Shown here: positions 16,254-64,000 of the stretch, in pieces
Layout of the letters: the number at the start of each line of letters is the position of its first letter
How positions within the stretch are numbered: position 1 is the first letter of the stretch
Virus record (IMG/VR): IMGVR_UViG_3300025949_000001
Location: 51,996-115,995 of that record
Length of the DNA stretch: 64,000 nt
Reading direction: 5' to 3' (one strand)
Source: a virus
Position numbers and translations under genes: made by a program
Notes under the pieces: generated by a model
Told to the model about the DNA's origin: nothing
The model's database searches: none
What the model saw: only the letters and a program-made list of their open reading frames with translations

Positions 16254-16544
16254 ATGCTCGCGATCACGCTCACACTGCTGGTTCTGGGCGCGCTGCTCGC
16301 CGCCTTCGGCACCGCCGGGTTCGCATTGAACTGGACGGCACCCGACCACGACAGCCTCCGGTACACCCAGGGCATCGCCAAGGCCGGGCGCCGGCTGTCC
16401 GCCGCCGGCCTGACGCTGTACGCCCTGCATTACGGCGCGAGCGGCCCGGCGCTGATTGCGCTGCTACTGGCCGCCGCGCTCGCACTCGCGACCTACCTCA
16501 CTCGAACAACGAGCACCTTATTGGCGGACGGTGGTGGCCGGTGA
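16254..16544 (+). CDS. Small integral membrane protein, 3' end replaced by a TnpB insertion
   Basis: 96 residues with hydrophobic segments at about 4-26, 48-60 and 67-84, resembling small spread (Spd-type) membrane proteins next to transfer genes. ATG 16254 has AAGGAGG. The last 14 codons lie inside the TnpB element: joining 16254-16501 to 17749-17791 restores an uninterrupted frame, also of 96 residues, whose TGA overlaps the GTG of the gene at 17788 as elsewhere in this operon. The present C-terminus (TRTTSTLLADGGGR) is therefore element-encoded. Membrane segments are intact, so it may still work. Confidence 0.65.
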   Translation: MLAITLTLLVLGALLAAFGTAGFALNWTAPDHDSLRYTQGIAKAGRRLSAAGLTLYALHYGASGPALIALLLAAALALATYLTRTTSTLLADGGGR

Positions 16545-17748
16545 AGCAAGCAAAGAGGTTCCGGCTCTACCCGACGCCCACGCAGGAGCAGACCCTGCTC
16601 ACGCACTGCGCGCACGCCCGGTATGTGTGGAACCTGGCGATCGAGCAGCACTCCTGGTGGACGCCTCGGCGCGGACCTGCGCCGACGTTTGCGGCGCAGT
16701 GCCGCCAACTGACCGAGGCCCGCGCCGAGTTCGAATGGCTGCGCGAAGGCTCAGTAAACGTCCAGCAGCAGGCGCTGCGCGACTTCGACCAGGCTATGCG
16801 GCACTTTTTCAACCGTACCCACGGACGCCCCAGCTTCCGGAGTAAGCACCGCAACGAGGGGTTCCGCATCACCGACAGATGTGACGTGCAGAAACTCAAC
16901 AGGCGCTGGGCGCAGGTGAGGATTCCCAAGATCGGATGGGTGCGCTTCCGGCTGTCCACGGCGCTCCTGCCGGACGCGAAGTCCTACCGGGTGACCTGCC
17001 GCAACGGTCGGTGGCACGTGGCGTTCGCGGTCATTCCCGACCCGATCGAGCCGCCCGGTACCGGAGAACTGGTCGGGATCGACCGGGGCGTAACGATAAC
17101 CGCCGCACTCTCGGACGGGCGCACCTTGAACTGCCCTCAGTCGAGCGTCAAAGAACAAGCCCGCGTTCGCAAGCATCAGCGTCGCGCAGCCCGCGCGCCG
17201 AAGGGCAGCGACGAGAAGGGCGCCGAGTACGCGCAAGTCGCCAAACTGAAGGCGCGCGAGGCGGACCGGCGCAAGGACTGGGTGGAGAAGACCAGCACGG
17301 ATCTTGCGCGGCGTTTTGACCTGATCCGGTTCGAGAAGCTGAACATTCGGAACATGACCGCCTCGGCACGGGGAACCATCGAAGCGCCCGGCCGCAACGT
17401 CAGGCAGAAGTCCGGCCTGAACCGGGCGATCCTCGCCCAGGGCTGGGGGCAGCTTCGACTGCGCACCGGGCAAAAGGCGCCCGGCCGGGTTGAGGATGTC
17501 CCGGCGCCGTACACCTCGCTGCGATGCAGCGCCTGCGGGTGGATCGAGAAGGACTCGCGCAAGAGCCAAGCCGAGTTCGTCTGCGTGTCCTGCGGGTTCG
17601 CGTGCAACGCAGATGTGAATGCAGCAGTGAACGTCGCGGCGGGGCACGCCGCAGGGATGACGCCGTGCCAGCGGCCGAGCATCCGTGGACCTCGGCCCGT
17701 ACGGGCCGGAATCCTGCCTAGAGCGCAGGAGGGTGCCAACTACCTGAC
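16502..17748 (+). mobile_element. TnpB-only IS200/IS605-type insertion, 1,247 bp
   Basis: Boundaries come from the reading frame of the interrupted membrane gene: left flank ends CCTCAC (16501), right flank resumes at 17749. The right end carries the usual hairpin CCTGC-CTAGAGC-GCAGG (17713-17729) followed by AGGGTGCCAAC, as in other IS605-group right ends. No TnpA transposase is present, so the element depends on one in trans. Because ACCTNAC occurs at both junctions, the cut points could shift by a few bases. Confidence 0.73.
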
Positions 17749-17791
17749 CGCCACCACCAACACCATCGTCCCGAGCGGAGCCACGCCGTGA
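16541..17791 (+). CDS. tnpB: TnpB RNA-guided nuclease, IS605 group
   Basis: 416 residues. RuvC-like catalytic residues are present: Asp in VGIDRGV (about 180), Glu in IRFEKLNIRNM (about 264), Asp in CNADVNAAVN (about 357). A four-Cys zinc finger CSAC...CVSC lies at about 328-350. The N-terminus (KRFRLYPTPTQEQTLL...ARYVWNLAIEQ) is the usual TnpB REC-side start. TnpB uses an omega-RNA from the element's right end to cut the empty donor site and so keep the element. GTG 16541 overlaps the membrane gene stop, and the protein's last 14 residues come from host DNA beyond the right end. All catalytic residues are intact, so it should be active. Confidence 0.92.
   Translation: MKQAKRFRLYPTPTQEQTLLTHCAHARYVWNLAIEQHSWWTPRRGPAPTFAAQCRQLTEARAEFEWLREGSVNVQQQALRDFDQAMRHFFNRTHGRPSFRSKHRNEGFRITDRCDVQKLNRRWAQVRIPKIGWVRFRLSTALLPDAKSYRVTCRNGRWHVAFAVIPDPIEPPGTGELVGIDRGVTITAALSDGRTLNCPQSSVKEQARVRKHQRRAARAPKGSDEKGAEYAQVAKLKAREADRRKDWVEKTSTDLARRFDLIRFEKLNIRNMTASARGTIEAPGRNVRQKSGLNRAILAQGWGQLRLRTGQKAPGRVEDVPAPYTSLRCSACGWIEKDSRKSQAEFVCVSCGFACNADVNAAVNVAAGHAAGMTPCQRPSIRGPRPVRAGILPRAQEGANYLTATTNTIVPSGATP
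17640..17748 (+). ncRNA. Predicted omega-RNA scaffold of the TnpB element
   Basis: The 3' part of tnpB and the right end contain GGCCCGTACGGGCC (17694-17707) and the CCTGC/GCAGG hairpin (17713-17729), ending GGGTGCCAAC. In IS605-group elements this region is processed into the guide RNA, with the guide taken from flanking DNA, here starting near 17749. The 5' limit is a guess. Confidence 0.42.
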
Positions 17792-18682: not shown

Positions 18683-18729
18683 GCCCGGCCCCGAATCGTG
18701 AACCCCTCCACATCGATTCGGGGCCGGGC
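18683..18729. promoter_or_regulatory. 16-bp perfect hairpin upstream of the transfer genes
   Basis: GCCCGGCCCCGAATCG (18683-18698) is exactly complementary to 18714-18729, with a 15-base loop. It sits in the gap 18614-18811 before the DUF2637 gene and is followed by an A-rich stretch (about 18730-18770). No T-run. It may be a terminator for the upstream operon or a structural site connected with transfer or replication. Confidence 0.58.
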
Positions 18730-18811: not shown

Positions 18812-19828
18812 GTGGATATCAACAATGCAGCGTCGGACCAGTGCGCTAACACCGATCCGACGCCGACTAACACGAGCCGCTATCCAGGAGCGACCAGCGT
18901 GCCTACGGCAGAGAATAACCGCGCGCCCAAGGGCAAGCGAACCCGCCACGACGACGCGCCCACCCCCGACGCGCCCGGCGACGTCATGGCCGTCCTACGG
19001 CACGGCGGAACCGCCGCCCTCGCCTGCGCCGCAGCCAGCTCCGCCGTCTCCCTGTACTGGCTCGCGATCCTCGTCGGCTGGCCCGCCGCCCTCGCCTGGC
19101 TGCTGCCGGCGAGCCTCGACGTGTACGCCGGCACCAGCCTCTACGTCGGGTACCGCCTACCGGTGCGCCACCCGGCCGCAAGGACTGCGCGGCGCAACGC
19201 CCGCTTCGCGCTGTCCCTCTCAGTCGCCTGCAACGCGATCTATCACGCGCTCGTCCTGTTCGGCACTGCGTGGCCGACCTGGGTCCACGACTCGCTCCTC
19301 GTCGCGGTTTCAGCGCTCCCGCCGATCGTGGTGGAACGCCTGCTGCACCTGCGTTCCAAGGTCGACACTGGAACCCCCGCAGCGGGTTTCGGGACCGTTC
19401 CAGCGCCGCGCGCTGAAATCCCGCAGCAGGTTCCACGCGAACGTCCCGCAACTGCGGCCCTCCGTCCCACTGGAACCCCCGCAGCGGTACCGCCGCCAGT
19501 TGCGCGACCCCAGGTTCCGGTTCCAGCCGCGCCGGCGGCACAGGTCCCGCAACCCGCGACCGCGGGTGTGGACGGAACCGAACTACCGGCTCTCGGGGAG
19601 CGCCGCGACCTGGTCGCCGCACAGCTGGAGACCGTGAAGGAACTCGTGCGCGAGCACGGCCCGGAGGTCACCCTCTCCACGATCATGGCGCGCACCGGGT
19701 GCAGCAAGTCCACCGCAAGCCGCCGCCGGGCCGACGCCATCGACGCGTTGAAAACCGAGGCGCGAGCGCACCGGGAGCCCGGCGCAGAACCGGCCGACGA
19801 ACCCGAACGAGACGGCGAGGTCGCCTGA
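18812..19828 (+). CDS. DUF2637-type membrane protein with C-terminal HTH
   Basis: 338 residues. Hydrophobic segments at about 60-120 and 135-175 (ALACAAASSAVSLYWLAILV; SLSVACNAIYHALVLFG) with the SLDVYAG stretch characteristic of DUF2637 proteins. A Pro-rich linker (about 185-260) follows, then a C-terminal HTH (VTLSTIMARTGCSKSTASRRRA). Such proteins lie next to the FtsK/TraB gene in Streptomyces and other AICEs. GTG 18812 follows GAGAGGAG. The linker's codons contain the repeated word CTGGAACC described in the findings. Its stop overlaps the translocase start. A role in transfer or spread at the membrane is inferred. Confidence 0.8.
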   Translation: MDINNAASDQCANTDPTPTNTSRYPGATSVPTAENNRAPKGKRTRHDDAPTPDAPGDVMAVLRHGGTAALACAAASSAVSLYWLAILVGWPAALAWLLPASLDVYAGTSLYVGYRLPVRHPAARTARRNARFALSLSVACNAIYHALVLFGTAWPTWVHDSLLVAVSALPPIVVERLLHLRSKVDTGTPAAGFGTVPAPRAEIPQQVPRERPATAALRPTGTPAAVPPPVARPQVPVPAAPAAQVPQPATAGVDGTELPALGERRDLVAAQLETVKELVREHGPEVTLSTIMARTGCSKSTASRRRADAIDALKTEARAHREPGAEPADEPERDGEVA

Positions 19829-20581
19829 TGCGCGCCAAGCGACGCCACGCCACGAACGAGGAAAACGAGACGCAATCGGCATTCTCCGCCGAACCCGGCA
19901 CCGCTCTCGCGCTGCGTGGCGTGGCGCAGCCCGCGCTCGCCGCACACGCACCGCAGGTCAACCCGTACGCGCCGATCTACGGCACCGGGAACCTCGCCAC
20001 GAACGGCGGCTACCCGTCCGTGGCGTACAACCCCTACCCCGGCCTGCCCGAGCACGTCGCCGACCAGCTCACCCCGGGCCTCGCGGACCGCACCGGATGG
20101 GCCCTGTTCCAGTGGATGCAGGACCGCCACCTGCTGCCCGGAATCGGCGTGCTGGCCGGCGTCGCCTGCGGCTGGGGGGCTGCGGCGACCGAACCGATGC
20201 ACCCCTGGTTCGGGTCCGTCGCCCTCGGCATGGGCGCCCTGGGCGGCGTCACCTACGCCGGGATCCACGTCATCCGCTCGATCAACGGAGACGACGACGC
20301 GGAGCCCGTCCCGGTAGGAGTGCACATCATCGGTCTCGGCGGGATAGCGCTGACCGCGTTCGGCGTCGCCTGCATCACGGGACTGTCGTTCCTCTCCGCC
20401 GGTGTCACGCTGGTTCCACTGGCGGCCGGGTACTACGCCTGGTTCCAGAACCGCAACAGCCGCCTGGAAGGGCAGCGGCGTTTCATCGTGGACTACACCG
20501 CCGCGTCCACCCCGGCGCTGGTACCCATGCCTGGAACCGCGATGGCACCCCCCGCCGCGATCCCTGGAACCGTGGTGTCCC
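19332..20581. repeat. Cluster of CTGGAACC/GGTTCCAG words (candidate clt-type site)
   Basis: TGGAACC or its complement occurs at 19369, 19429, 19471, 19519, 20412, 20441, 20532 and 20575; six of these are the full 8-mer CTGGAACC, and near matches lie at 19332, 19353, 19397, 19513 and 19575. A 20-bp perfect direct repeat (19366-19385, 19468-19487) includes two copies. TraB-type translocases of Streptomyces elements bind tandem 8-bp words at clt, close to or within transfer genes. Assignment to this TraB is inference. Confidence 0.55.
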
Positions 20582-22152
20582 ACGAAGAGGCGATGGTGCG
20601 CCGCGCCTTCGAAGGCATGAACATCGCGCTGCAGGACGTGTACGGGTTCGAGCGCATCGACGCCGACTCGTTCGCCCTCACCGTCGTGTTCGCCCCGGCC
20701 TCCAACGTCTCGCCCGAGTCGGTGATCGCCCGCAAGGACGTCCTGGCCAGTTCGCTCGGCGCCCGGCAGCTGATCGCGCTGACGACGCAGCGCGGGCACG
20801 AACTGCGCCTGACGATCCGCTACGGGGAGATCGACCCGCTGGCCGAGACCGTGCCCTTCCCCGGCCCGGTCGCCACCTCGATCACCGAGCCGATCCCGAT
20901 CGGGGTGTCCGCTGACGGATCGGCCTCCGAGATCACCCTGCTCGGCGTGCACACCCTCGTGGGCGGTGCGACGGGCGGCGGGAAATCCGTCATCGTCAAA
21001 ATTCTGATCACCTCGATCGCGGCGATGAGCGACGCGGTGCTGTGGCTTATCGATTTGAAGCCCGGCCGTATCGAGCTCGGTATTTTCGAACCCGTCGCCG
21101 ATCGTTCCGCACGTTCTTTGGCAGACGCCGCGATGATGTTCGAGGCGCTTATCGCCGCGGCGAAAGCCCGCGGGGAGTATCTCGCGTCGCTGCGCGATGA
21201 GACCGGGCAGCCGGTGGAGAAGTGGGACCCCACCGTCCACGGCCCGGTGATCGTCGTGGTCGTGGACGAGCTGGCGGAGTTGGTGCGCCAGGGCAAGAAG
21301 GTGCGCAAGGGCGAGTACGGCGACCGCATCATGGAAGCGATCAAGTGGGTGGTGTCGAACTTCGAGACCGCCGCGCAGGTCTACCGGGCGCTCGGCATCC
21401 AACTGGTGATCGCGACCCAGTCCCCGTCCTCGGCGATCACCTCGGGAGACGGCAAGGACGCGATCGACCAGTTCCAGAACCTGCTGTGCGTGCGCACCGC
21501 GAAGGTGTCGCAGACCAACATCGTGCTCGGGCAGGGCGCGCACGGCGACGGGTTCCGCGCCAACACCGACCTGTACGTCTCGGGCATGTACTACATGAAG
21601 ACCCCGCAGCTGTCGGTGCCGATCAAGCACAAGGCGTACTGGAGCGAGAACGAGGAGATCGTCGGCTACATCAACCAGTACGCCGACACCCGGCCGCCGC
21701 TGGACGAGCGCACCGGCGAGGCGGTGGCCGCGGTGCTCGGCACGATCGGCGCGACCCCCCGCACCGGGCCGGGCGGCGGGGGTAGCCGGACGGTGCCGAT
21801 CCGGGACGCGGCCGAGGCGGCGGCGCGCCCGAACCTGCGCAGCGTGCCGAGCGGCGACCGCGACGGCTACGACGGGCCGCGCTACCCGGACCGCCGGCCG
21901 GTCGAGCCCAAGAAGCAGCCGCTATGGAATCTGCTGGACTCGCCGCAATTCCGCGCTAGCGGCGCGACGGTCGGCGAACTTGCGGCGGCTGCCGCGCGGG
22001 CGGGCCACGACGCGTCGTCGCTGGCGTGGGTGCGCGACCGCTGCAAGGAGTGGCGCGAGGCCGACTATGTCGTGTTCGAGAAAGAAGGCCAGGACTACCG
22101 GTACTGGCGCGACGACTACACGCTGGCGGCTCAATTCAAGCGGGAGGCATGA
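19828..22152 (+). CDS. TraB/FtsK-like double-stranded DNA translocase
   Basis: 774 residues. A cytoplasmic start, membrane segments at about 100-130 and 135-210, then a FtsK/SpoIIIE motor: Walker A GGATGGGKS at about 379-387, Walker B VIVVVVDELAEL at about 472-483, and IATQSPSS further on as sensor motif. A C-terminal winged-helix-like part (GATVGELAAAAARAGHDASSL) corresponds to the gamma domain that reads 8-bp DNA words. This is the only protein AICEs such as pSAM2 need to move double-stranded DNA between mycelial cells. ATG 19828 overlaps the DUF2637 stop (TGATG). A packaging or segregation role in a phage is an alternative, but the neighbours are of AICE type. Confidence 0.9.
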   Translation: MRAKRRHATNEENETQSAFSAEPGTALALRGVAQPALAAHAPQVNPYAPIYGTGNLATNGGYPSVAYNPYPGLPEHVADQLTPGLADRTGWALFQWMQDRHLLPGIGVLAGVACGWGAAATEPMHPWFGSVALGMGALGGVTYAGIHVIRSINGDDDAEPVPVGVHIIGLGGIALTAFGVACITGLSFLSAGVTLVPLAAGYYAWFQNRNSRLEGQRRFIVDYTAASTPALVPMPGTAMAPPAAIPGTVVSHEEAMVRRAFEGMNIALQDVYGFERIDADSFALTVVFAPASNVSPESVIARKDVLASSLGARQLIALTTQRGHELRLTIRYGEIDPLAETVPFPGPVATSITEPIPIGVSADGSASEITLLGVHTLVGGATGGGKSVIVKILITSIAAMSDAVLWLIDLKPGRIELGIFEPVADRSARSLADAAMMFEALIAAAKARGEYLASLRDETGQPVEKWDPTVHGPVIVVVVDELAELVRQGKKVRKGEYGDRIMEAIKWVVSNFETAAQVYRALGIQLVIATQSPSSAITSGDGKDAIDQFQNLLCVRTAKVSQTNIVLGQGAHGDGFRANTDLYVSGMYYMKTPQLSVPIKHKAYWSENEEIVGYINQYADTRPPLDERTGEAVAAVLGTIGATPRTGPGGGGSRTVPIRDAAEAAARPNLRSVPSGDRDGYDGPRYPDRRPVEPKKQPLWNLLDSPQFRASGATVGELAAAAARAGHDASSLAWVRDRCKEWREADYVVFEKEGQDYRYWRDDYTLAAQFKREA

Positions 22153-22153
22153 G

Positions 22154-22357
22154 ATGGAACCCGGGACGTTCGTCGTCGGCTGCACGGCTGAGGGCGAGCC
22201 GGTGACGGCCGAGACGTATCGCCTTCCCGATCGGGTGATCGGCGTCTGGATCGATGAACTGGCCGAGTCGGCCCGGACGCCGAGGCTGGACGCGCCGTCG
22301 GCCGCGGCGCTGTGGGCGGCGATGCGCGCGAGCGGGCCGACCGCCCGGGGCGCGTGA
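22154..22357 (+). CDS. Small hypothetical protein after the translocase
   Basis: 67 residues, acidic, with RVIGVWIDELAESARTPRLD. Starts two bases after the translocase stop with GGGAGG upstream; its end overlaps the next start (TGATG). No family recognised. Confidence 0.52.
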   Translation: MEPGTFVVGCTAEGEPVTAETYRLPDRVIGVWIDELAESARTPRLDAPSAAALWAAMRASGPTARGA

Positions 22358-23580
22358 TGGCCCGCCGCCAACGCCGCAGGGCCCGGCTGCGCGGCTGGAT
22401 GCCGAACCGGGTCGCCGCCCGATTCATCTCCGGCGGCAAGCACCAGACGTTCACCTCGATCGCGAAATCGCCGTTCCGCGTAAAGACGATCACGAACAAG
22501 AACAACCGGCGCCAGCAGTACCAGGCCGCGCGCCGACGCGAAGCCCGCGCCCTCGCAGCCGCCAAGCGCAAGGCAGTCCGGGATGCCGCCGCGCAGAAGA
22601 AGGCCTACGCGCGCCGCGCCGCCGAACTGAAGAAACTCGCGCCGAAGCCGCCGCGCAAGCCGCGCCCGAAGTCCCCGCCGATCGCCGTCGACCCGCGCAC
22701 CGGCCAGCCGATCACCTGGCCGCAGGCGCAGAAAGCGCTGCGGGAAGCACAGGAGCGCGCCGAACGCCTCGCCGCAGGGCTGCCCGGCGATGCGCCCGTC
22801 AAGGCGCCGCGCAAGACGGCGGCGAAGAAGACCGCTGCGGCGCGCCCTGCAAACCGCTCCCCGGCCGCGCGCCGCAGCGGGACCGCCCGGCCCAGGAAGC
22901 CCTCGAAGCCCCGCAAGGCGACCGCCATCCCGGCGCCGCCCACTTCGCCCGGCAAGACGCTCACCGGCGTGTACTGGGCGCTGACCTGCGCATGCCAAGG
23001 CACCGGCCGCATCGTCCAATACGCCGACGACGGCACCCCGAACGGCTCGATCTCCTGCCCCACGCACGGACGCAAAGCGCGCGGCGGACGCAAACTCACC
23101 TCCCGGCGCGCGATCAAAGAAGCCGGGCTGCCTGGCCTCGGCTCCTGGCTCGAGGGCAAGACGCGCCGCGGGCGGGGCAACCTCGACAAGAAACAGGAGC
23201 GCGCCCGCGACCGGGCCAAGGCGATACAGAGGCACGCCGGCCCGACCACGCAATGCGGCGCCTGCGACGAGGGCATCGTCAACCGCGGGTTGACCGACCA
23301 GCTGCGCGATGCGTACATCGGCGACCTGATCGCGAAACTCGAAGCGCAGGAAAAGCGGATCCCCCCGAGTCGGACACTGAACGCGGCGGCGCGCAAGGCG
23401 TACCCGTACGACCACTGCCGCCGGTGTGCAGGGCTCGGCCGCGCCCCGAAGGCGGCCGACGGCGACTGGTACGAGAGCGCGGGCCTGAAGGAGAAGCACC
23501 GGTTGACACCGCGCGAGAAAGCCGCCGGGCAGATCGACCCGGCGCTGCGTATCCGCAACTCCCGCACCCGGCGCGGCTGA
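22357..23580 (+). CDS. Large basic protein with DnaJ-type CxxCxGxG-like motifs
   Basis: 407 residues, strongly Lys/Arg/Ala-rich, especially residues 1-190, so likely binds nucleic acid. Three cysteine groups, CACQGTG, CGACDEG and CRRCAGLG, resemble the zinc modules of DnaJ and of actinobacterial mobile-element transfer proteins. Its position immediately after the translocase suggests a transfer accessory or DNA-binding role. No enzymatic motif is seen. Confidence 0.63.
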   Translation: MARRQRRRARLRGWMPNRVAARFISGGKHQTFTSIAKSPFRVKTITNKNNRRQQYQAARRREARALAAAKRKAVRDAAAQKKAYARRAAELKKLAPKPPRKPRPKSPPIAVDPRTGQPITWPQAQKALREAQERAERLAAGLPGDAPVKAPRKTAAKKTAAARPANRSPAARRSGTARPRKPSKPRKATAIPAPPTSPGKTLTGVYWALTCACQGTGRIVQYADDGTPNGSISCPTHGRKARGGRKLTSRRAIKEAGLPGLGSWLEGKTRRGRGNLDKKQERARDRAKAIQRHAGPTTQCGACDEGIVNRGLTDQLRDAYIGDLIAKLEAQEKRIPPSRTLNAAARKAYPYDHCRRCAGLGRAPKAADGDWYESAGLKEKHRLTPREKAAGQIDPALRIRNSRTRRG

Positions 23581-25413: not shown

Positions 25414-25983
25414 GTGAAGCTTTCGGAGTGGGCGCGCCGCGAAGGCGTGCACTACCAGACCGCGTGGGAGTGGGCGAAGAACGGGCGCATGCCCGTGCCC
25501 GCCTACCAGACCCCGTCCGGGACATGGATGGTGCGCACCGAACCCGACGCGCCCACCGGGCGCGTCGTCGCCTACGCCCGCGTCTCCAGCGCCGACCAGA
25601 AGCCCGATCTCGAGCGCCAGGCCGGGCGCGTGGTGACGGGCGCGACCGCCCGAGGTCTCGCCGTCGCCGAAGTCGTCACCGAGATCGGTTCCGGACTGAA
25701 CGGCGAGCGCCGCAAACTGCACCGGATCCTCGCCGACCCCACCGCCGCAGTGATCGTGGTCGAGCACCGCGACCGGCTCGCGCGCTTCGGTGTCGAGCAT
25801 CTCGATGCCGCCCTGCAAGCGAACGGCCGCCGCATCGTCGTCCTCGAACACGACGAGACCAGCGACGACCTCGTACGGGACGTGGCCGAGGTACTCACCT
25901 CGATGTGCGCCCGGCTGTACGGGCGCCGCTCCGCCAGGAACCGGGCCGCGCGCGGCATCGCCGCCGCGACGGGCGAGCGCTGA
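25414..25983 (+). CDS. tnpA: IS607 transposase TnpA (serine recombinase)
   Basis: 189 residues. The MerR-like N-terminal HTH (KLSEWARREGVHYQTAWEWA) binds DNA; the resolvase domain follows with YARVSSADQ (catalytic Ser about residue 57), LERQ, and EHRDRLARFG with conserved Arg residues. It makes double-strand staggered cuts through a phosphoserine link and excises or inserts the element as a circle. A TATACT -10 at 25402-25407 ends six bases before GTG 25414, indicating a leaderless message. Confidence 0.92.
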   Translation: MKLSEWARREGVHYQTAWEWAKNGRMPVPAYQTPSGTWMVRTEPDAPTGRVVAYARVSSADQKPDLERQAGRVVTGATARGLAVAEVVTEIGSGLNGERRKLHRILADPTAAVIVVEHRDRLARFGVEHLDAALQANGRRIVVLEHDETSDDLVRDVAEVLTSMCARLYGRRSARNRAARGIAAATGER

Positions 25984-25986
25984 TCC

Positions 25987-27366
25987 ATGGCCGTGCAGGC
26001 CTACCGGTTCGCCCTCGACCCGACGCCGGCCCAGGCGCGCAACCTCGCGCGGCATGCCGGCGCGGCGCGGGTCGCGTTCAACTGGGGACTCTCGGCGGTC
26101 AGGGCGAACTTGTCCCAGCGTGAGGCCGAACGCTTCTACGGCATCGACGGCGACGACCTTACCCCGGCGCTTGGCTGGTCGATGTATGCGCTGCGCAAGG
26201 CCTGGAACCAAGCCAAGGGCGACATAGCTCCATGGTGGTCGGAATGCTCGAAAGAGGCGTACGCCAGCGGGCTGGAGCAACTCGCCCGCGCGTTGAAGAA
26301 CTGGTCCGACTCCAAACGCGGCAAGCGCGCCGGCCGACCGGTCGGGTTCCCGCGGTTCAAGGCGAAGCGTCGCGCTGCGCCGTCGGTGAGATTCACTACC
26401 GGGACAATCCGCGTCGAAGCCGACCGCATGCACGTGACGCTGCCGGTGCTGGGCCGGATCAAGACGCACGAGTCCACGCGCAAATTGGAGCGCAGGGTCG
26501 CGAACGGCACCGCGCGGATCCTGTCCGCGACCGTGCGCCTTGAGGCGGCCCGCTGGTTCGTCGCGTTCACCGTCGAAATCCGGCGACCCGAGAAGTCCCC
26601 GCGCCGACCGGACGCGGTAGTCGGCGTCGACCTGGGAATCAAGACGCTGGCCGTCCTGTCCGAGGGCGAGCCGGTCGGGAACTCGCGGTACTACGATGCG
26701 GCGCGCCGGAAGTTGGCCCGCACCTCGCGCACCGTTTCGCGCCGCCAAGGACCGGACCGGCGCACCGGGCAGGCCCCTTCTAGCCGGTGGGTGCGGGCGA
26801 ACGCCGCGCGCAACAGAGTCCACCGCCGGGTTGGAAACCTGCGCCGCGACGGGATCCACAAACTCACCACCGCGCTGGCCCGCGAGTACGGCACGGTCGT
26901 GGTCGAGGACCTGAACGTCGCCGGGATGGTCCGCAACCGGCGGCTCGCACGCGCGATCTCCGACGCCGGGTTCGGCGAGATTCGCCGCCAGTTGGCGTAT
27001 AAGGCGGCGTGGAACGGCGGCCGGCTCGCCGTGGCGGACCGCTGGTTTCCCAGTTCCAAGACGTGCTCGGGCTGCGGGGCAGTGAAACCCAAACTGTCCC
27101 TGGCCGAGCGCACCTACACCTGCATCGAATGCGGACTGGTCTTGGATCGGGACCTGAACGCGGCGCTCAACCTCAAGCAGTTGGTTGAGCGCACCGTCGC
27201 CGGGAGTGGCCCGGAGACGTTAAACGGACGTGGAGCCGACCGTAAGACCAGCGTGCTGGCAGGTGGCCGTGAAGCGTCTACCCCGCACCCGGCTCTCGCC
27301 GGGGTAAGACGGGGACTCTTGCCGGGCAACCGGCAAGTCCTAGGCAGGCATTCGCTGAAACTCTAG
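25987..27366 (+). CDS. tnpB: TnpB RNA-guided nuclease of the IS607 element
   Basis: 459 residues. Catalytic Asp in VGVDLGI (about 215), Glu in VVVEDLNVAGM (about 306), Asp in LDRDLNAALN (about 389), and the zinc finger CSGCG...CIECG before it; all intact. The C-terminal 55 residues after the last catalytic Asp are Gly/Arg-rich and their DNA folds into hairpins such as CTTGCCGGGCAACCGGCAAG (about 27317-27336), as expected where the omega-RNA overlaps the gene. It is only distantly like the TnpB at 16.5 kb. ATG 25987 starts four bases after tnpA. Confidence 0.93.
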   Translation: MAVQAYRFALDPTPAQARNLARHAGAARVAFNWGLSAVRANLSQREAERFYGIDGDDLTPALGWSMYALRKAWNQAKGDIAPWWSECSKEAYASGLEQLARALKNWSDSKRGKRAGRPVGFPRFKAKRRAAPSVRFTTGTIRVEADRMHVTLPVLGRIKTHESTRKLERRVANGTARILSATVRLEAARWFVAFTVEIRRPEKSPRRPDAVVGVDLGIKTLAVLSEGEPVGNSRYYDAARRKLARTSRTVSRRQGPDRRTGQAPSSRWVRANAARNRVHRRVGNLRRDGIHKLTTALAREYGTVVVEDLNVAGMVRNRRLARAISDAGFGEIRRQLAYKAAWNGGRLAVADRWFPSSKTCSGCGAVKPKLSLAERTYTCIECGLVLDRDLNAALNLKQLVERTVAGSGPETLNGRGADRKTSVLAGGREASTPHPALAGVRRGLLPGNRQVLGRHSLKL

Positions 27367-44715: not shown

Positions 44716-45969
44716 TCAGATGTAGGCGTCCCTCCATTGCACGGTCATGCCGGAGCCGGAGGACGCGATGCCGCCGAGGCGGACCGTGAAGGCGCCGGGG
44801 GGCAGCACCCACCAGGCGGAGGAGATGTCGGCGGGTTGCAGCGCCCCGTTGAGAGTGGCCTGGCGCTGGTCGAAGTCGACGATCAGCTGCTGCCCTGCGG
44901 CGAGGGCCACACCGGTGAACGAGACAACTTGGCCGGTGTCGAGCAGGGTGAGCGAGGGGTTCTGGATGGGGCCGTTGATCTGCACGACGGGGCGGGTTTC
45001 GAAGTTGCCGCCGTTGGTGGCGCCGACTACGGCGGGCAGCCCGTTGGCGGGCATCGCGACGGGCGGGGTCAGCGGCGGGGTGACGCCATTGAGGGTGACG
45101 GCGGCCTGCACGGTGGCCGATTGCAGGGCGGCGGCGTAGCGGCGCGGGTCGGGGGCGACCAGGCCGATGGTGAAGACGACCTCCCCGAGGTTGGGGTAGG
45201 TCTCGGCGATCGGCCCGGAGCGGCGCACCAGGGATTGTTTGGGCACGGGTTCGTCGAAGACGTAGGTGGCCATGTCTCCGGCCGCGCCGCCGACGACGAC
45301 GGCGCGCTGCAGTTTCGCCCGCGCCGCGTCGCGCAAAGCCTGGGTGGGTGCGGTGGCGTGGCAGGTCAGGGTGTAGAGGGCGGGAGCGTAGAACTGGGGG
45401 ACGGCGTAGCCGCCGTGGTCACTGGAGCGCTGCACGACCTGCCCGGAGGTGCCCGCGCCGCCCACCCCGGCCAGCGAGTCGCGCACCCATGCGACCCCGG
45501 CGGTGCCCGGGTCGGTGTCGATCGCGCCGAACTGGATCACGGTGCCGTCCGGGGCGGTGATGGAGTCACGCCAGGGCCCGACGTCCACGGGCGCCGCCGC
45601 GGCGCGGCCGAGCCCGTAGGCGCCGGTGACATCGAAGTTCTCGGTGGCGCCGATCAGGTCGCCGCCAAAAGTGATCGCCCAGTTGGCGACGTACACCCCG
45701 GAGTCGATGGCGTAGGGCACGGGCCAGTCGAGCTGGTAGATCCCGGTGGTGACCCGCCACACCTGCCCCGCAGTGGCGGCGGGGGCGCCCTGGTAGGTGA
45801 ACGGCCCGCCGCCGGCCACGTCGTGGCTGGAGTCCCCGGGCGCGGATGTGGCGGAGCCGTAGGTGATGTCGGCCTGGACGGCGGCCGGGTCGGTCAGGAT
45901 CCCGGTGTCGTCGTTGTAGAACCACAGTTGCAGGCTGGCGGTGGCTCCGGCGCGGTAGGCGTTGGTCAT
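44716..45969 (-). CDS. Distal tail / minor tail protein
   Basis: 417 residues directly after the tape measure gene (ATGA overlap), where the distal tail (Dit) protein lies. An N-terminal extension (residues 1-140) resembles the Ig-like modules that also start the 53.5-kb connector protein (LQLWFYNDDTGILTD...). The rest contains ALYTLTCHATAPTQALRDAARAKLQRA and a C-terminal jelly-roll-like region ending MTVQWRDAYI. It caps the tail tube. Confidence 0.7.
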   Translation of the reverse strand: MTNAYRAGATASLQLWFYNDDTGILTDPAAVQADITYGSATSAPGDSSHDVAGGGPFTYQGAPAATAGQVWRVTTGIYQLDWPVPYAIDSGVYVANWAITFGGDLIGATENFDVTGAYGLGRAAAAPVDVGPWRDSITAPDGTVIQFGAIDTDPGTAGVAWVRDSLAGVGGAGTSGQVVQRSSDHGGYAVPQFYAPALYTLTCHATAPTQALRDAARAKLQRAVVVGGAAGDMATYVFDEPVPKQSLVRRSGPIAETYPNLGEVVFTIGLVAPDPRRYAAALQSATVQAAVTLNGVTPPLTPPVAMPANGLPAVVGATNGGNFETRPVVQINGPIQNPSLTLLDTGQVVSFTGVALAAGQQLIVDFDQRQATLNGALQPADISSAWWVLPPGAFTVRLGGIASSGSGMTVQWRDAYI

Positions 45970-57648: not shown

Positions 57649-58674
57649 TCAGCGGCTGGTGTCGACGAGGATGGAGAACGCCTGCTCGACGGCCGGCGCG
57701 AACGCACGCCGGGCGCGGCCCTTGAGCACGGCCTCGTCGGTCAGGGAGATGTTCGGGGGGATGACCTGGAACTCGGGCGTACCCGCCGGGTTCGTCGGAT
57801 TTGTCGTCCTCTTGCCGAGCAACATGTACAGCGGGTTGCAGAACACCATCAGCGGGTGGCCGGTCGGCTTCGCCGTCGGTGTCGCGTTCAGCCGCGCACC
57901 GAGCGACCAGCGCACCGGGTAGCCGAAGATCATCGCCGGGGTGCGGCCCTGCCCTCCGCCCGGGAAACCGCCGCTGGACTCCTGGAAGATCGGCCGCTGC
58001 TGGCCGTCGAGCACTCCGCGCAGCGACTGCTTGAAGTCCGGGTGCGCGATGGCGATCGTCTCGCCCTCGTCGAAGTAGTCTCCGGCCTCGTACAGGCCCA
58101 GCGACGTGTTGTACTCCGCGTAGGACGGGGCTGCGGCCGAGGTGGTGATGTTCGCGTTCGCCGTGTAGCTGGTGTTCGTGTCGTTCTGCGTCAGCAGGTA
58201 GTACAGGCTGTCGAACGCCATGCCCGTGGTGGCCCTGGCCGCGGTCACCCCGAAGCAGGAGTTGTCCAGCTTCTTCGCGTACGCAGTGCCCCAGGCGTTC
58301 TGCTTGCTGTTGATGATGTTCGCCAGCGAGTCGTTCAAGTCCTCTTCCGCGAGGCGGTAGGCCCTCGTGAACTTCTGCGCGGTCAAGGTCACCTGGTCGT
58401 TGGCGTTGGTGTCCTCGTTGTACGAACCGCCCTTGGCCGTGTGGTCGATGTCCGACCCGGTGTCGCGCGGTGTGCTGCGGCTGTTGGTGCTCATCAGCAC
58501 CTCTTGCGCGTACGCCTCGACGACCGAGGTCTGCTTGACCTTCTGGATCACGTCGGCGGCGTACTCGACCGGGACCCACGCGTCGAAGTTGTCCGTCGCG
58601 CCGCCCATGATCAACGTGATGGGCTGGCCGTTGCTGCGGTAGCCCAGCACTGCGCCGGGCGTGGGGATGCGCAT
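57649..58674 (-). CDS. Major capsid protein, HK97 fold
   Basis: 341 residues. WVPVEYAADVIQKVKQTSVVEAYAQ and FTRAYRLAEEDLNDSLANI fit the N-arm and spine helix of actinophage HK97-fold capsid proteins; GETIAIAHPDFKQSLRGVL and MVFCNPLYMLLGKRT the P- and A-domain strands. The first 26 residues contain LGYRSNGQPITLIMGGA, also found in the scaffold protein's N-terminus. No N-terminal delta domain, in agreement with a separate scaffold gene upstream. Confidence 0.9.
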   Translation of the reverse strand: MRIPTPGAVLGYRSNGQPITLIMGGATDNFDAWVPVEYAADVIQKVKQTSVVEAYAQEVLMSTNSRSTPRDTGSDIDHTAKGGSYNEDTNANDQVTLTAQKFTRAYRLAEEDLNDSLANIINSKQNAWGTAYAKKLDNSCFGVTAARATTGMAFDSLYYLLTQNDTNTSYTANANITTSAAAPSYAEYNTSLGLYEAGDYFDEGETIAIAHPDFKQSLRGVLDGQQRPIFQESSGGFPGGGQGRTPAMIFGYPVRWSLGARLNATPTAKPTGHPLMVFCNPLYMLLGKRTTNPTNPAGTPEFQVIPPNISLTDEAVLKGRARRAFAPAVEQAFSILVDTSR

Positions 58675-59818: not shown

Positions 59819-60859
59819 CTATCTCGAACCGGTTGTGATCGTTGTGTGCGTGCGGAATTGCCCTGCCGCGATCCGCCGCCGGGCCCGCTGCTCGACGCTC
59901 TTCGGCAAACCCGCGCCGCCGCGACGGGCGAGCAGGGCTTGCGCCGCGCGCTGCCGTGCGGCCTGCGACTCGGACGGCAGCGCGATCCCGAGCACGACCG
60001 AACGGCGCGCCTCGCGCTGCAGCACGTTCGTCAGCGAATCGAGACCGAGGCCGGACACGCGCGGATCGCTGCGGCGCACCAGGCGCCCGCGACACCGGCA
60101 GTGGTTGTGGACCAGCAGCGTGACGCCCTCGCGGTCACCGGGCGCCAGCCACGGGCCGAGGATCAGCGGCTTGAACACGAAATCCGGCGGATCCGCGATC
60201 GCGCCCTGCAGGGACGTGCATCTAAGGCACGCCGAGCGTTCGCCTTGCAGGATCTGCGACCATCCGTCGGCGAGGGCCACCTGGTTCATGCCGGAGCGGG
60301 CCGCGTCGTGCACGAGCCCGGACGCGGCCTGGTCGGTGTGCGTCACGGCGCGGCTGGCGAGTGCGAACGCTTTGACCACATCGCCTCGGTCGCGCGCCAC
60401 CGAGATCAGCGCGTTCGCGTCGGCCAGGAAACCCTGCTGCCTGCTGCGCGCCGCGGCCAGTTGCCCGAGCATCCGGGCGTCGAGGATCAACTCGCCGCGA
60501 CCCAGAGGGGCGGCCCCGGACTCGATCACGGCCTGGTGTGCGCCGAGCCGCAGCGCGTCCTCCAGCTGCGGCACGATCCGCCCAGGGTCCGGCAGCGACG
60601 CGCCCACCCGGTCGATCTCGGCCGCGAACCATTCCCGGAACTCCACCAGCGCCCGGATCGACCCGGTCGCGGCCTTGGCGGTGAACCGGGCCAGGGCGAG
60701 CGCGAGCAACGCTTTCAACAACTCGTGCGCGCGGCCGGTCAGCGCCGCCGCAGCAGTGCCGGCGAGCGCCGCGACCTGGTCGGCGTGCTCCCAGGACTGC
60801 TGCGTCTGCGCCGAGAGCGGCTGCTGCTGCGCCGGGGTGTCGAGAGCGGCTGCGGTCAC
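59819..60859 (-). CDS. Minor head protein, MuF/phage morphogenesis family
   Basis: 346 residues. Helical first 180 residues; then VALADGWSQILQGERSACLRCTSL and LLVHNHCRCRGRLV, the Cys/His pattern of the MuF C-terminal domain. Starts four bases inside the portal gene's end (ATGA). MuF proteins sit inside the head at the portal. Confidence 0.87.
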   Translation of the reverse strand: MTAAALDTPAQQQPLSAQTQQSWEHADQVAALAGTAAAALTGRAHELLKALLALALARFTAKAATGSIRALVEFREWFAAEIDRVGASLPDPGRIVPQLEDALRLGAHQAVIESGAAPLGRGELILDARMLGQLAAARSRQQGFLADANALISVARDRGDVVKAFALASRAVTHTDQAASGLVHDAARSGMNQVALADGWSQILQGERSACLRCTSLQGAIADPPDFVFKPLILGPWLAPGDREGVTLLVHNHCRCRGRLVRRSDPRVSGLGLDSLTNVLQREARRSVVLGIALPSESQAARQRAAQALLARRGGAGLPKSVEQRARRRIAAGQFRTHTTITTGSR

Positions 60860-62490
60860 GGCTCGCCGCCGTCGCCCGCGGTCTCCACGCCGTCATCGCT
60901 GGCGATCGAGCCCTCATCGCCATCCGGTTCGATCGCGGAACGGTCGCGCTTACCGAATGACGCGGGCCCGGCCGGTGCGAACTCCAGCATCTGCGCAAGC
61001 AGCGCCTGCACATCCGCCTTGTCGAACACCCCGAGTTCCATCGCGACAGCCCAACCCTGCGCCGCCTGCCCGATCGCGTTGAGGGTCTCGATCTGCTGCG
61101 CGAGGGTCTGCGCGCCCTCCTCCAGCCACTCGTCGACCTGCTCCTCGCTGTAGCCCGCTTCGAGCAGCAGTTGTTTCGCGGGGACGCCGAGCTTGTTCTT
61201 GATGTCGGCGGTCTGCCAGGTCTGCATGTCCGAGACGGACGAGCAGGGGTTCCAGTGCACGGAGATCTGCGGGTCGCCGATGTTCATCGCCACGTAGATC
61301 GCGAAGTCGATAGCGTCGCGCCACGCCCCGCCGAACAGCAACTGGCGGGTTTCGCACTTCTCCACGAACGGCGCCTCCATCGTCCTCAACGACTCGCCCG
61401 AGGGGGTCTGGCCGATCGTGTCGAAATAGTGCGCGGGCGTGGTGGTGATCTGCGCCATGGCCTTGACGTAAAACGTCATCGGCGCGATGAACACGCTCGG
61501 GTCCGAGGGCGCGAACTCGCCCAAACCCTTGATGCCGGACAGCAGCCACAGCGACCCGGCCTCGCTGCGCAGTTGCGCGCGACCGTCGTCGGCGTTCGTC
61601 GTAGCGCCGGTGTCGATCGAGTACGCGGTCTCGTCCTCGTCGCCGACCGCGAAATCGTTGCTGGTGGTGCCCTCTTCGAGTAGCGCATAGCGCTGCGGCA
61701 GGGCGTGGTAGTCGATCCCGGCGGCGTGGCCCATCGCCAGCTTGTGCACCAGGTTCTGCGGGCCGTAGGCGTTGAGGTGCTCCGGCTGCCCGTACTGGAA
61801 GTCCGTGCGCAAATGGAAGACCGGGACCTGCCCGAACGGGTTCTCCAGCGGCCACTGCCCGTCGTCGGCCGAGTCGTGGAACCGTTGCCAGTCGCCGCGC
61901 AGCGAGCCTTTCTTGCCGGGCGTCGTGGCGTACTTCTCGATCCGGTCCGCGTAGTACAGGATCGCCTTCTTCACCGGGCCGTCGGTCCAGCGTTTGATCG
62001 CGTACCGCTTCTCGATCTCGTTCTCGGCGTCGTATATCAGCCGCATCACGCGCGGGTTGTTCAGGTACACCCGCACCCCGGACGGCAGCGTCTCATCCGG
62101 CCACACCAGCAGATAGCTGTCCCCGAATTCGCAGGCCCGCCGGAAAGACAGGATCTCGAACAGGTCGAGTTGGTTGTCCTTCCAGATCTGCGCGATCCGC
62201 TCCTGCACGCCCTCGACGGGCGAGGTGATCGCGTTGATGCGCAGCCTGCTGACGACTGCGTCCACGGGGGTCTTGGCGAAGTTCAACCGGAAGTCCACAC
62301 CGGTCCTGGCCAGTGCGGCGCGCAAGCGGGGGGAGGCGAACACTTCCGGGAACGAGCCCTCGTAGTAGACCTGCGCCTTCCTGTAGGCGCGGTCCGCTTT
62401 GTCCATGGCCCGCAGACCCTCGTCGAGGTCGTCGACGGTCTGGTCCGGGTCGGCGCTGCCCAGCGCTGGGGGCCATCCCGTGACCGTCAT
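60856..62490 (-). CDS. Portal protein
   Basis: 544 residues, SPP1-type portal family: RLNFAKTPVDAVVSRLRI, FRRACEFGDSYLLVWPDE, VYLNNPRVMRLIYDAENEIEKRYAIKRW, and a helical stem region PAHYFDTIGQTPSGESLRTMEAPFVEKCE. ATG 62490 is preceded by GGAGATCC. Twelve copies form the channel through which DNA is packaged. It precedes MuF and follows TerL, the canonical order. Confidence 0.93.
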   Translation of the reverse strand: MTVTGWPPALGSADPDQTVDDLDEGLRAMDKADRAYRKAQVYYEGSFPEVFASPRLRAALARTGVDFRLNFAKTPVDAVVSRLRINAITSPVEGVQERIAQIWKDNQLDLFEILSFRRACEFGDSYLLVWPDETLPSGVRVYLNNPRVMRLIYDAENEIEKRYAIKRWTDGPVKKAILYYADRIEKYATTPGKKGSLRGDWQRFHDSADDGQWPLENPFGQVPVFHLRTDFQYGQPEHLNAYGPQNLVHKLAMGHAAGIDYHALPQRYALLEEGTTSNDFAVGDEDETAYSIDTGATTNADDGRAQLRSEAGSLWLLSGIKGLGEFAPSDPSVFIAPMTFYVKAMAQITTTPAHYFDTIGQTPSGESLRTMEAPFVEKCETRQLLFGGAWRDAIDFAIYVAMNIGDPQISVHWNPCSSVSDMQTWQTADIKNKLGVPAKQLLLEAGYSEEQVDEWLEEGAQTLAQQIETLNAIGQAAQGWAVAMELGVFDKADVQALLAQMLEFAPAGPASFGKRDRSAIEPDGDEGSIASDDGVETAGDGGEP

Positions 62491-62996: not shown

Positions 62997-64000
62997 TCAG
63001 GCGTAGCCGACCGACGTGCCGCCCCCGCGCTTGCGCTGCGCCGGACGGTCCAGGAACCACTCCACCCCCGTGCCCACCGTGTCCACCAGGTCGTCGTGCG
63101 CGCCGCGCGGGAACACCACCATGTTCTGCTCCAACGCGCGCAGCGGGCGCTCATGGAAGCACCGGCCGCCGCGCTGATACTTGTCCAGCAGCCTGGCCGC
63201 CCTCACTTCCTTGTGCTCGGAATGCCACACCGTCTCGATCGGCAGCCCCAGGTCCCCCAGCAGCGCCAGCCACACCTCGCCGCCCTGATTACTCTCGATC
63301 ACCAGGCCGCGGATCTGCGGATACTGCGCCACCACACGCACCACGAGTTGACGCAGCGCCTGCCCCGGCTGCACCCGCACCGCCCATGCGTCGCGCACCG
63401 CGCACCGCCGCGTCACCGCCGAGAACCCGATCACCGCGAGCGCGGTGAAGTCGGAAGTCTTCTTCGTGGTGACCGCCGGGTCGATCGCGAGCAACTGGTG
63501 GGTGATGGACGCGATTGTCTGCGCCTGCAACTCGGCGCTGACCCGGTTCGTGCCGAAATCCTCCGGCGTCCAATACGTACCCGCCGCGCCCAAGGGGTCG
63601 TTGGCGAAGTTCTTCAGGTAGTCCCGCGTGTTCTCGATCTCTTCGAGGAACGCGAGCGGCCACTTCGCTGGCCAGATCGAGCGGCGACCGGTATCGCCCG
63701 AGTGTTCGTCGAACCATTCGACGATCGGCGCGTAGTAGTGCACGCGGACCGCCTGCTCCCGGATCCACGCCGAATCCGGGGTTTCCTCCGCGTCCGGATA
63801 GCGTTCCGACTCCACGAGTTGGTGGATGATCGAGCCGGGCATCACGACCGTGCCGACCAGCACCACGCGCGCCCGCAGGTTCAGCGGCAGGATCGCGTCG
63901 ATGATCGAACGCAGCCGCTTGCCCACCTGCTCGGTGGAGTAGTTCGACTCGTCCGGCTCCACATCGTCAAGTAAGAGCATCGTCGGCCTTTGATCTTTCA
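62997..64000 (-). CDS. Terminase large subunit (N-terminus outside window)
   Basis: The frame is open to the right edge, giving at least 334 residues. Walker B and catalytic carboxylate in MLLLDDVEPDE near the visible start, coupling region RVVLVGTVVMPGSIIHQLVES, then the RuvC-like nuclease: LLAIDPAVTTKKTSDFTALAVIG (first Asp), LVIESNQGG (Glu), and DDLVDTVGTGV (last Asp). TerL cuts concatemeric DNA and pumps it through the portal. The Walker A part lies outside. Confidence 0.94.
   Translation of the reverse strand, partial: KDQRPTMLLLDDVEPDESNYSTEQVGKRLRSIIDAILPLNLRARVVLVGTVVMPGSIIHQLVESERYPDAEETPDSAWIREQAVRVHYYAPIVEWFDEHSGDTGRRSIWPAKWPLAFLEEIENTRDYLKNFANDPLGAAGTYWTPEDFGTNRVSAELQAQTIASITHQLLAIDPAVTTKKTSDFTALAVIGFSAVTRRCAVRDAWAVRVQPGQALRQLVVRVVAQYPQIRGLVIESNQGGEVWLALLGDLGLPIETVWHSEHKEVRAARLLDKYQRGGRCFHERPLRALEQNMVVFPRGAHDDLVDTVGTGVEWFLDRPAQRKRGGGTSVGYA

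Follow-up and report, generated by a model that had tools for sequence, protein, structure and literature searches.

Two adjacent genes of a tailed phage, encoding a membrane protein and a TraB/FtsK-type DNA translocase, carry arrays of a short repeated word within their coding sequences. Selection acts on this word at the DNA level, the arrays occupy the same two positions in five lineages, the word itself turns over between lineages, and a constant inverted repeat (C) lies between the arrays. Besides coding for protein, the array stretches, termed V1 and V2, most likely serve as a docking site that flags the phage DNA to the translocase. Our favored reading, held with about even confidence, is that the gene pair carries a composite, coding-embedded site of the clt/sps type, which would load a membrane translocation complex onto the phage DNA. 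We favor it because the words are enriched, after control for codons, at the same two places in all five lineages, and because C shows the strongest synonymous constraint and predicted the fifth relative from DNA alone.

The analyzed DNA, hereafter the window, is a stretch of 64,000 nt from the IMG/VR record IMGVR_UViG_3300025949_000001 (G000; 116 kb in total). Since the window contains genes for a portal protein, a major head protein and a terminase, the element is, by its gene content, a tailed phage, and its interpretation as a plain conjugative plasmid or ICE is not supported. An integrase gene is present elsewhere in the record. Four IMG/VR contigs harbor the same gene pair, namely G001 (L009), G002 (L016), G003 (L027), and G004 (L036), giving a sample of five lineages that includes no isolate and in which the four relatives are metagenomic fragments. 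A search for the translocase in 84,980 bacterial genomes found nothing, and the plasmid and phage collections yielded only distant ATPases and nothing resembling the upstream protein of G002. Among named elements, Streptomyces phages and 130-kb Streptomyces plasmids encode the ATPases nearest to this one, but lack the architecture described here. Two OrfB/TnpB-like genes (IS605, Cas12f-like) flank the module in the window at 16541-17791 and 25987-27366 (+), the second being preceded by a probable serine-resolvase-like gene (25414-25983). A perfect, terminator-like 16-nt inverted repeat (18683-18729) is located between the module and the preceding gene, and a 24-bp tandem repeat (48448-48504) lies inside a long gene, possibly a tape measure gene (45966-48908).

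Table 1. Features of the translocase module and phage structural genes, in window coordinates.
Feature	Position	Strand	Evidence or remark
Upstream gene: membrane protein, linker, C-terminal HTH	18812..19828	+	Weak Pfam matches
V1, variable-word array in upstream-gene linker	19348..19608	.	Interval holds other words in G001-G004
V1 copies of CTGGAACC	19368, 19470; 19519	+; -
V1 copies of TGGAACC and TGGAAC	19429; 19353, 19397	-	TGGAACC at 19429, TGGAAC at the other two
Direct repeat CACTGGAACCCCCGCAGCGG (20 bp), copies 1 and 2	19366..19385, 19468..19487	+	Repeat search
C-terminal HTH region of upstream protein, candidate V-word reader	19601..19760	+	Weak Pfam match
TraB/FtsK-type DNA translocase, 774 aa	19828..22152	+	PF01580 E 6.6e-12; PDB; PHROG FtsK/SpoIIIE
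C element, left arm CGCCACGCCACG	19843..19854	+	Inverted repeat; constant in five lineages
C element, right arm CGTGGCGTGGCG	19915..19926	-	Inverted repeat; constant in five lineages
Outlying CGCCACG of C	19995..20001	+	All five lineages have it at +164 to +173
Outlying CGTGGCG of C	20019..20025	-	Offset +191; relatives, +206 to +227
V2, array of variable words within traB, after the membrane segment and before the ATPase	20403..20593	.	Word map
V2 copies of CTGGAACC	20441; 20531, 20564	-; +
V2 copy of TGGAACC	20412	-
All eight TGGAACC/GGTTCCA words of V1 and V2	19369, 19471, 20532, 20565; 19429, 19519, 20412, 20441	+; -
C-terminal winged helix of TraB, candidate C reader	21883..22149	+	AlphaFold model, Foldseek
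Downstream basic, Cys-rich conserved gene of module	22357..23580	+	Follows TraB in relatives
Phage major head protein	57649..58674	-	PHROG 10, E 4e-16
Phage portal protein	60856..62490	-	PHROG 104, E 4e-61
Phage terminase large subunit (part)	62997..63962	-	PHROG 38, E 6e-35

The stop of the upstream gene overlaps the start of traB. The upstream protein has two Pfam matches, both below the curated cut-offs: HTH_IclR (E 0.0011) and DUF2637 (PF10935; E 0.0012, residues 68-174, 19.2 bits against a cut-off of 22.8); its homologs in G001 and G002 gave no match to DUF2637. The C-terminal domain of the G002 homolog was modeled as three helices (pLDDT 90), and a fold search of the PDB with this model gave no significant match. 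TraB contains an FtsK/SpoIIIE ATPase domain, and its PDB matches include the DNA translocase coupling protein 6o1w and FtsK 2iut. The C-terminus of TraB is predicted by AlphaFold to form a winged helix (pLDDT 88, H-H-H-E-E-H), whose best Foldseek matches are winged-helix regulators at a weak E-value above 0.001. The gene following traB has an equal position and a related N-terminus in G001, G002, and G003, and showed no family match.

The original prediction had described eight TGGAACC words in the gene pair, six of them in the full form CTGGAACC, and a recount over 19369-20571 agrees. Its estimate of about six more words elsewhere was too low, as the whole window contains 17 copies of TGGAACC and 11 of CTGGAACC, with 9 and 5 of these, respectively, outside the cluster. 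As had been stated, the word is mostly spelled with rare codons (GTT 4.0%, CCA 3.7%, and GGA 8.1% in the rest of the phage), and the reported 20-bp direct repeat CACTGGAACCCCCGCAGCGG is real, with one CTGGAACC in each copy. For the 64 kb, the expected number of CTGGAACC copies is 1.83, and none of 100 dinucleotide shuffles reached the observed 11. Within the two genes, six copies were observed against a mean of 1.22, and this count was reached in none of 3000 synonymous-codon permutations, placing the word above a codon-shuffled null as had been anticipated. The copy at 20441 falls in the conserved protein motif YYAWFQN, which is common to the relatives through protein conservation, so that about five copies of CTGGAACC are informative. 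When the permutation was corrected for all k-mers over the two whole genes, the window alone was not significant, and the claim therefore leans on the relatives.

The word had been expected to recur in homologous elements. CTGGAACC was not enriched in any of the four relatives, and its single copies near traB were accounted for by the YYAWFQN motif; instead, every lineage has a word of its own. These words occupy the same two intervals in the window and in the relatives: V1, at about -480 to -220 from the traB start, and V2, at about +575 to +765, just past the membrane segment of TraB. The dominant words in V1/V2 are CGGCA[GC]CGAA and CTGCCGCC in G001, CGGCA[AG]CGGG in G002, GGGCGGAA with TGCCGGGC in G003, and TGCCGCCC in G004. 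V1/V2 hold nine of the ten word copies in the G002 record, seven of eight in G003, and six of nine in G001. The words of the relatives have a TGCCG core in common, which leaves the word of the window phage as the odd one; this core is GC-rich and could be partly convergent in origin.

Under the whole-gene permutation corrected over all k-mers, G001 and G002 passed (0 of 250 each), as did G003 at k = 8 (3 of 250). In V1+V2 only, the top 8-mer was beaten in 0 of 1000 codon permutations in the window phage, G001, G002, and G003 each, in a test that is not fully independent, as the bounds of V1/V2 were taken from the G001-G003 maps with the window data already known. G004, discovered after these bounds had been fixed, provides an out-of-sample case and likewise gave 0 of 1000. 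With the phage codon usage as the null, any 8-mer reached six copies in V1+V2 of the window in 7 of 1000 permutations. Per lineage (n = 5), the word count exceeded the best 8-mer count in at least 993 of 1000 codon shuffles of V1+V2. Codon-controlled enrichment in five lineages, with varied frames and strands, supports selection on the DNA word and not on the protein. That the words lack a function and arose from codon or linker composition or from duplication of short repeats is very improbable and already largely refuted. Such an origin would fit the repetitive Pro/Ala-rich linkers, the presence of one 20-bp duplication, and the result of the corrected test on the window alone. However, the codon nulls preserve the protein, the words occur in several reading frames and on both strands, V2 codes for conserved, non-repetitive protein sequence, and the arrays keep their position across the five lineages although the word differs, with C constant at synonymous sites.

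The constant inverted repeat at 19843-19926 had escaped the original prediction and is a better candidate for the target of a shared TraB. This element lies between V1 and V2 at the start of traB, with CGCCACG words spanning 19843-20025. In a codon alignment of the five traB genes, the two intervals of strongest synonymous conservation were 19831-19857, where 58 of 59 codon pairs are identical against 30.6 expected, and 19891-19926, with 55 of 61 against 25.8 expected. A DNA-only search with the C pattern recovered G001-G003, which were already known, along with seven further contigs. Among these seven, G004 encodes the same gene pair and constitutes the fifth lineage; the other six encode no translocase and were taken as chance matches. 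The occurrence of lineage-specific words in the same intervals, together with the constancy of C at synonymous positions, indicates that these are DNA sites.

We compared the protein domains of the five lineages in order to assign readers to the two elements. The lineages are mosaic, in that different domains pair different phages. The upstream membrane segment is 43% identical between the window phage and G002, and 76% between G001 and G003. The TraB ATPase of the window phage is closest to that of G002 (69%), which nevertheless has a different word, and G001 and G004 share 85%. The winged helices of TraB are 48-64% identical across all five lineages and do not set the window phage apart. Only the upstream C-terminal HTH isolates it, at 9-27% identity compared to 44-67% among G001-G003; the HTH of G004 is, by eye, of the same class as the latter. 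Because the word changes where the upstream HTH changes while the TraB winged helices are about equidistant, the window phage being an outlier only in the HTH and in its word, the comparison favors the HTH of the upstream membrane protein as the reader of V. This is one contrast, of the window phage against four relatives, and not proof. The constant repeat C is possibly read by TraB.

The original prediction had taken CTGGAACC as the TRS of a clt site, bound by the winged helix of the 19828-22152 product, with TraB and the word diverging together. We now consider this unlikely, although it has precedents. The TraB of pSVH1 is reported to recognize 8-bp repeats with alpha3, a helix of its winged-helix domain (Vogelmann 2011, cited in PMC3583192), and clt words vary among Streptomyces plasmids (TGACACC, CCGCACA[C/G][C/G]). 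In addition, the TraB of the window is modeled with a winged helix, and the putative recognition helix varies between lineages. The assignment is weakened by the roughly equal similarity of the winged helices, given that the word appears to follow the upstream HTH, and a constant element at traB suits a shared reader better. What remains supported is that the arrays are part of a TraB/FtsK translocase module, a setting known for repeated motifs of 7-9 bp (clt/TRS); the constancy of the word in relatives and TraB as its best reader are not supported.

In the favored reading of a composite site, the constant inverted repeat at the traB start would be flanked by the lineage-specific arrays V1 and V2, and a complex of both encoded proteins would load there onto the extrachromosomal DNA of the phage itself. 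The upstream protein would read V with its C-terminal HTH and tether the DNA to the membrane, and TraB would pump the DNA, possibly through C. The purpose might be spread between cells or segregation in a lysogenic, plasmid-like state. We infer these reader assignments and the transfer or segregation role from sequence comparison and from precedents: SpdA2 binds sps sites within its own gene (PMC4170104), TraA of pWTY27 binds a clt that overlaps the traA gene (PMC3583192), and repeats of 8-bp motifs at clt are recognized by translocases of the TraB type (PMC3583192, PMC4170104).

Alternatively, the site might be a centromere, to which the membrane HTH protein would bind through V, anchoring and partitioning a plasmid prophage without active transfer by TraB. 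A ParABS partition system was set aside, as G000, G001, and G003 gave no PF13614 or PF02195 match in records that may be incomplete, and this lack of detected ParA/ParB speaks both for the centromere and for the favored composite site. The sps/SpdA2 precedent affects segregational stability (PMC4170104), and spdB2 stabilizes SLP2 (cited in PMC4170104). Nevertheless, traB itself contains V2 and C, and all five lineages have them together with this gene; this points to involvement of the translocase, and we regard the centromere as improbable. Guide sequences of the KOPS/SRS type, which are genome-wide and strand-polarized for FtsK/SpoIIIE, were rejected, since the words are local and on both strands.

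The arrays could also be origin iterons for plasmid-mode replication, an explanation we rate as quite improbable. In lambda O, the linker of the initiator gene contains the sites, and the present layout is similar in that a DNA-binding protein is encoded by a gene with repeated sites in its linker. However, the membrane protein is not an initiator, V is not AT-rich, and separate lambda-O-like iterons are found in putative initiator genes of the same phages. A lytic origin of the lambda O type was set aside likewise, as the products of the array genes are a translocase and a membrane protein and the O-like iterons are elsewhere. One putative initiator gene (G000:C1:21551-22420; L019 3551-4420), upstream of the window, carries GAAGCAA iterons in its linker, with six copies, whereas no 7-mer exceeded five under the codon null. 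In G001, an ORF with an N-terminal HTH (G001:C1:52333-53307, minus strand; L023) has a dense CTGAGCCGTG array in its linker and is likely the equivalent origin.

As a wider and doubtful extension, these phages may represent a tailed-phage family with a self-contained conjugation-like module, whose docking site, embedded in coding sequence, would pair a constant motor core with a fast-changing address word recognized by an exchangeable membrane-adaptor HTH, each lineage thereby moving its own DNA only. If the composite site is real, a family of tailed phages employs a double-stranded DNA translocase of the plasmid type together with an addressing system of its own, the border between phages and conjugative plasmids is blurred, and the module offers a test case for the evolution of motor specificity. 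Synonymous constraint combined with word turnover would then also provide a computable route to such hidden sites.

Among known systems, the Gilgamesh-type Streptomyces phages and 130-kb plasmids encode a related ATPase (about 30% identity) beside a small membrane or hypothetical gene, but without the upstream HTH protein, the C element, or coding arrays; some have intergenic repeats nearby. In a Gilgamesh-type phage and 130-kb Streptomyces plasmids, short lineage-specific repeats TCTATCAA, ATCCTTTC, GATGGGATG, and CATCTCAACTC occur near the FtsK-like gene, outside or between genes (L012 8019-8791, L013 7944-8549, L010 10349-10405, L011 9501-9563), and are possibly analogous sites. The Streptomyces plasmids CP108533, NZ_CP107821, NZ_CP070374, NZ_CP108441, and NZ_CP122459 (130-133 kb) may be phage-plasmids; their FtsK-like proteins are relatives of the one encoded by phage Gilgamesh (129 kb). 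The upstream protein is comparable to SpdB2 of pSVH1, an integral membrane protein with TraB as an interaction partner and with DNA binding that is reported to be non-specific, whereas the protein described here has a predicted C-terminal HTH and adjacent repeated words. SpdA2/sps of pIJ101 likewise has sites within the coding region of a transfer-region accessory gene, bound by its own product, and V1 similarly lies in the gene of its candidate reader. In contrast to sps, a conserved 12-bp palindrome, the V words of the five lineages are non-palindromic and turn over. A further parallel is TraB/clt (TRS) of Streptomyces plasmids, e.g., pSVH1, pIJ101, pJV1, and pWTY27, which combines an FtsK/SpoIIIE-type translocase bearing a C-terminal winged helix with repeated 7-9 bp motifs and inverted repeats beside or overlapping tra, the word varying between elements; a repeated short motif clustered at tra is present here as well. 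The system described here differs in being borne by a tailed phage, in a site that is wholly coding, extends over two genes and about 1.2 kb, and has variable and constant parts, and in a word that appears to follow the membrane HTH protein rather than TraB.
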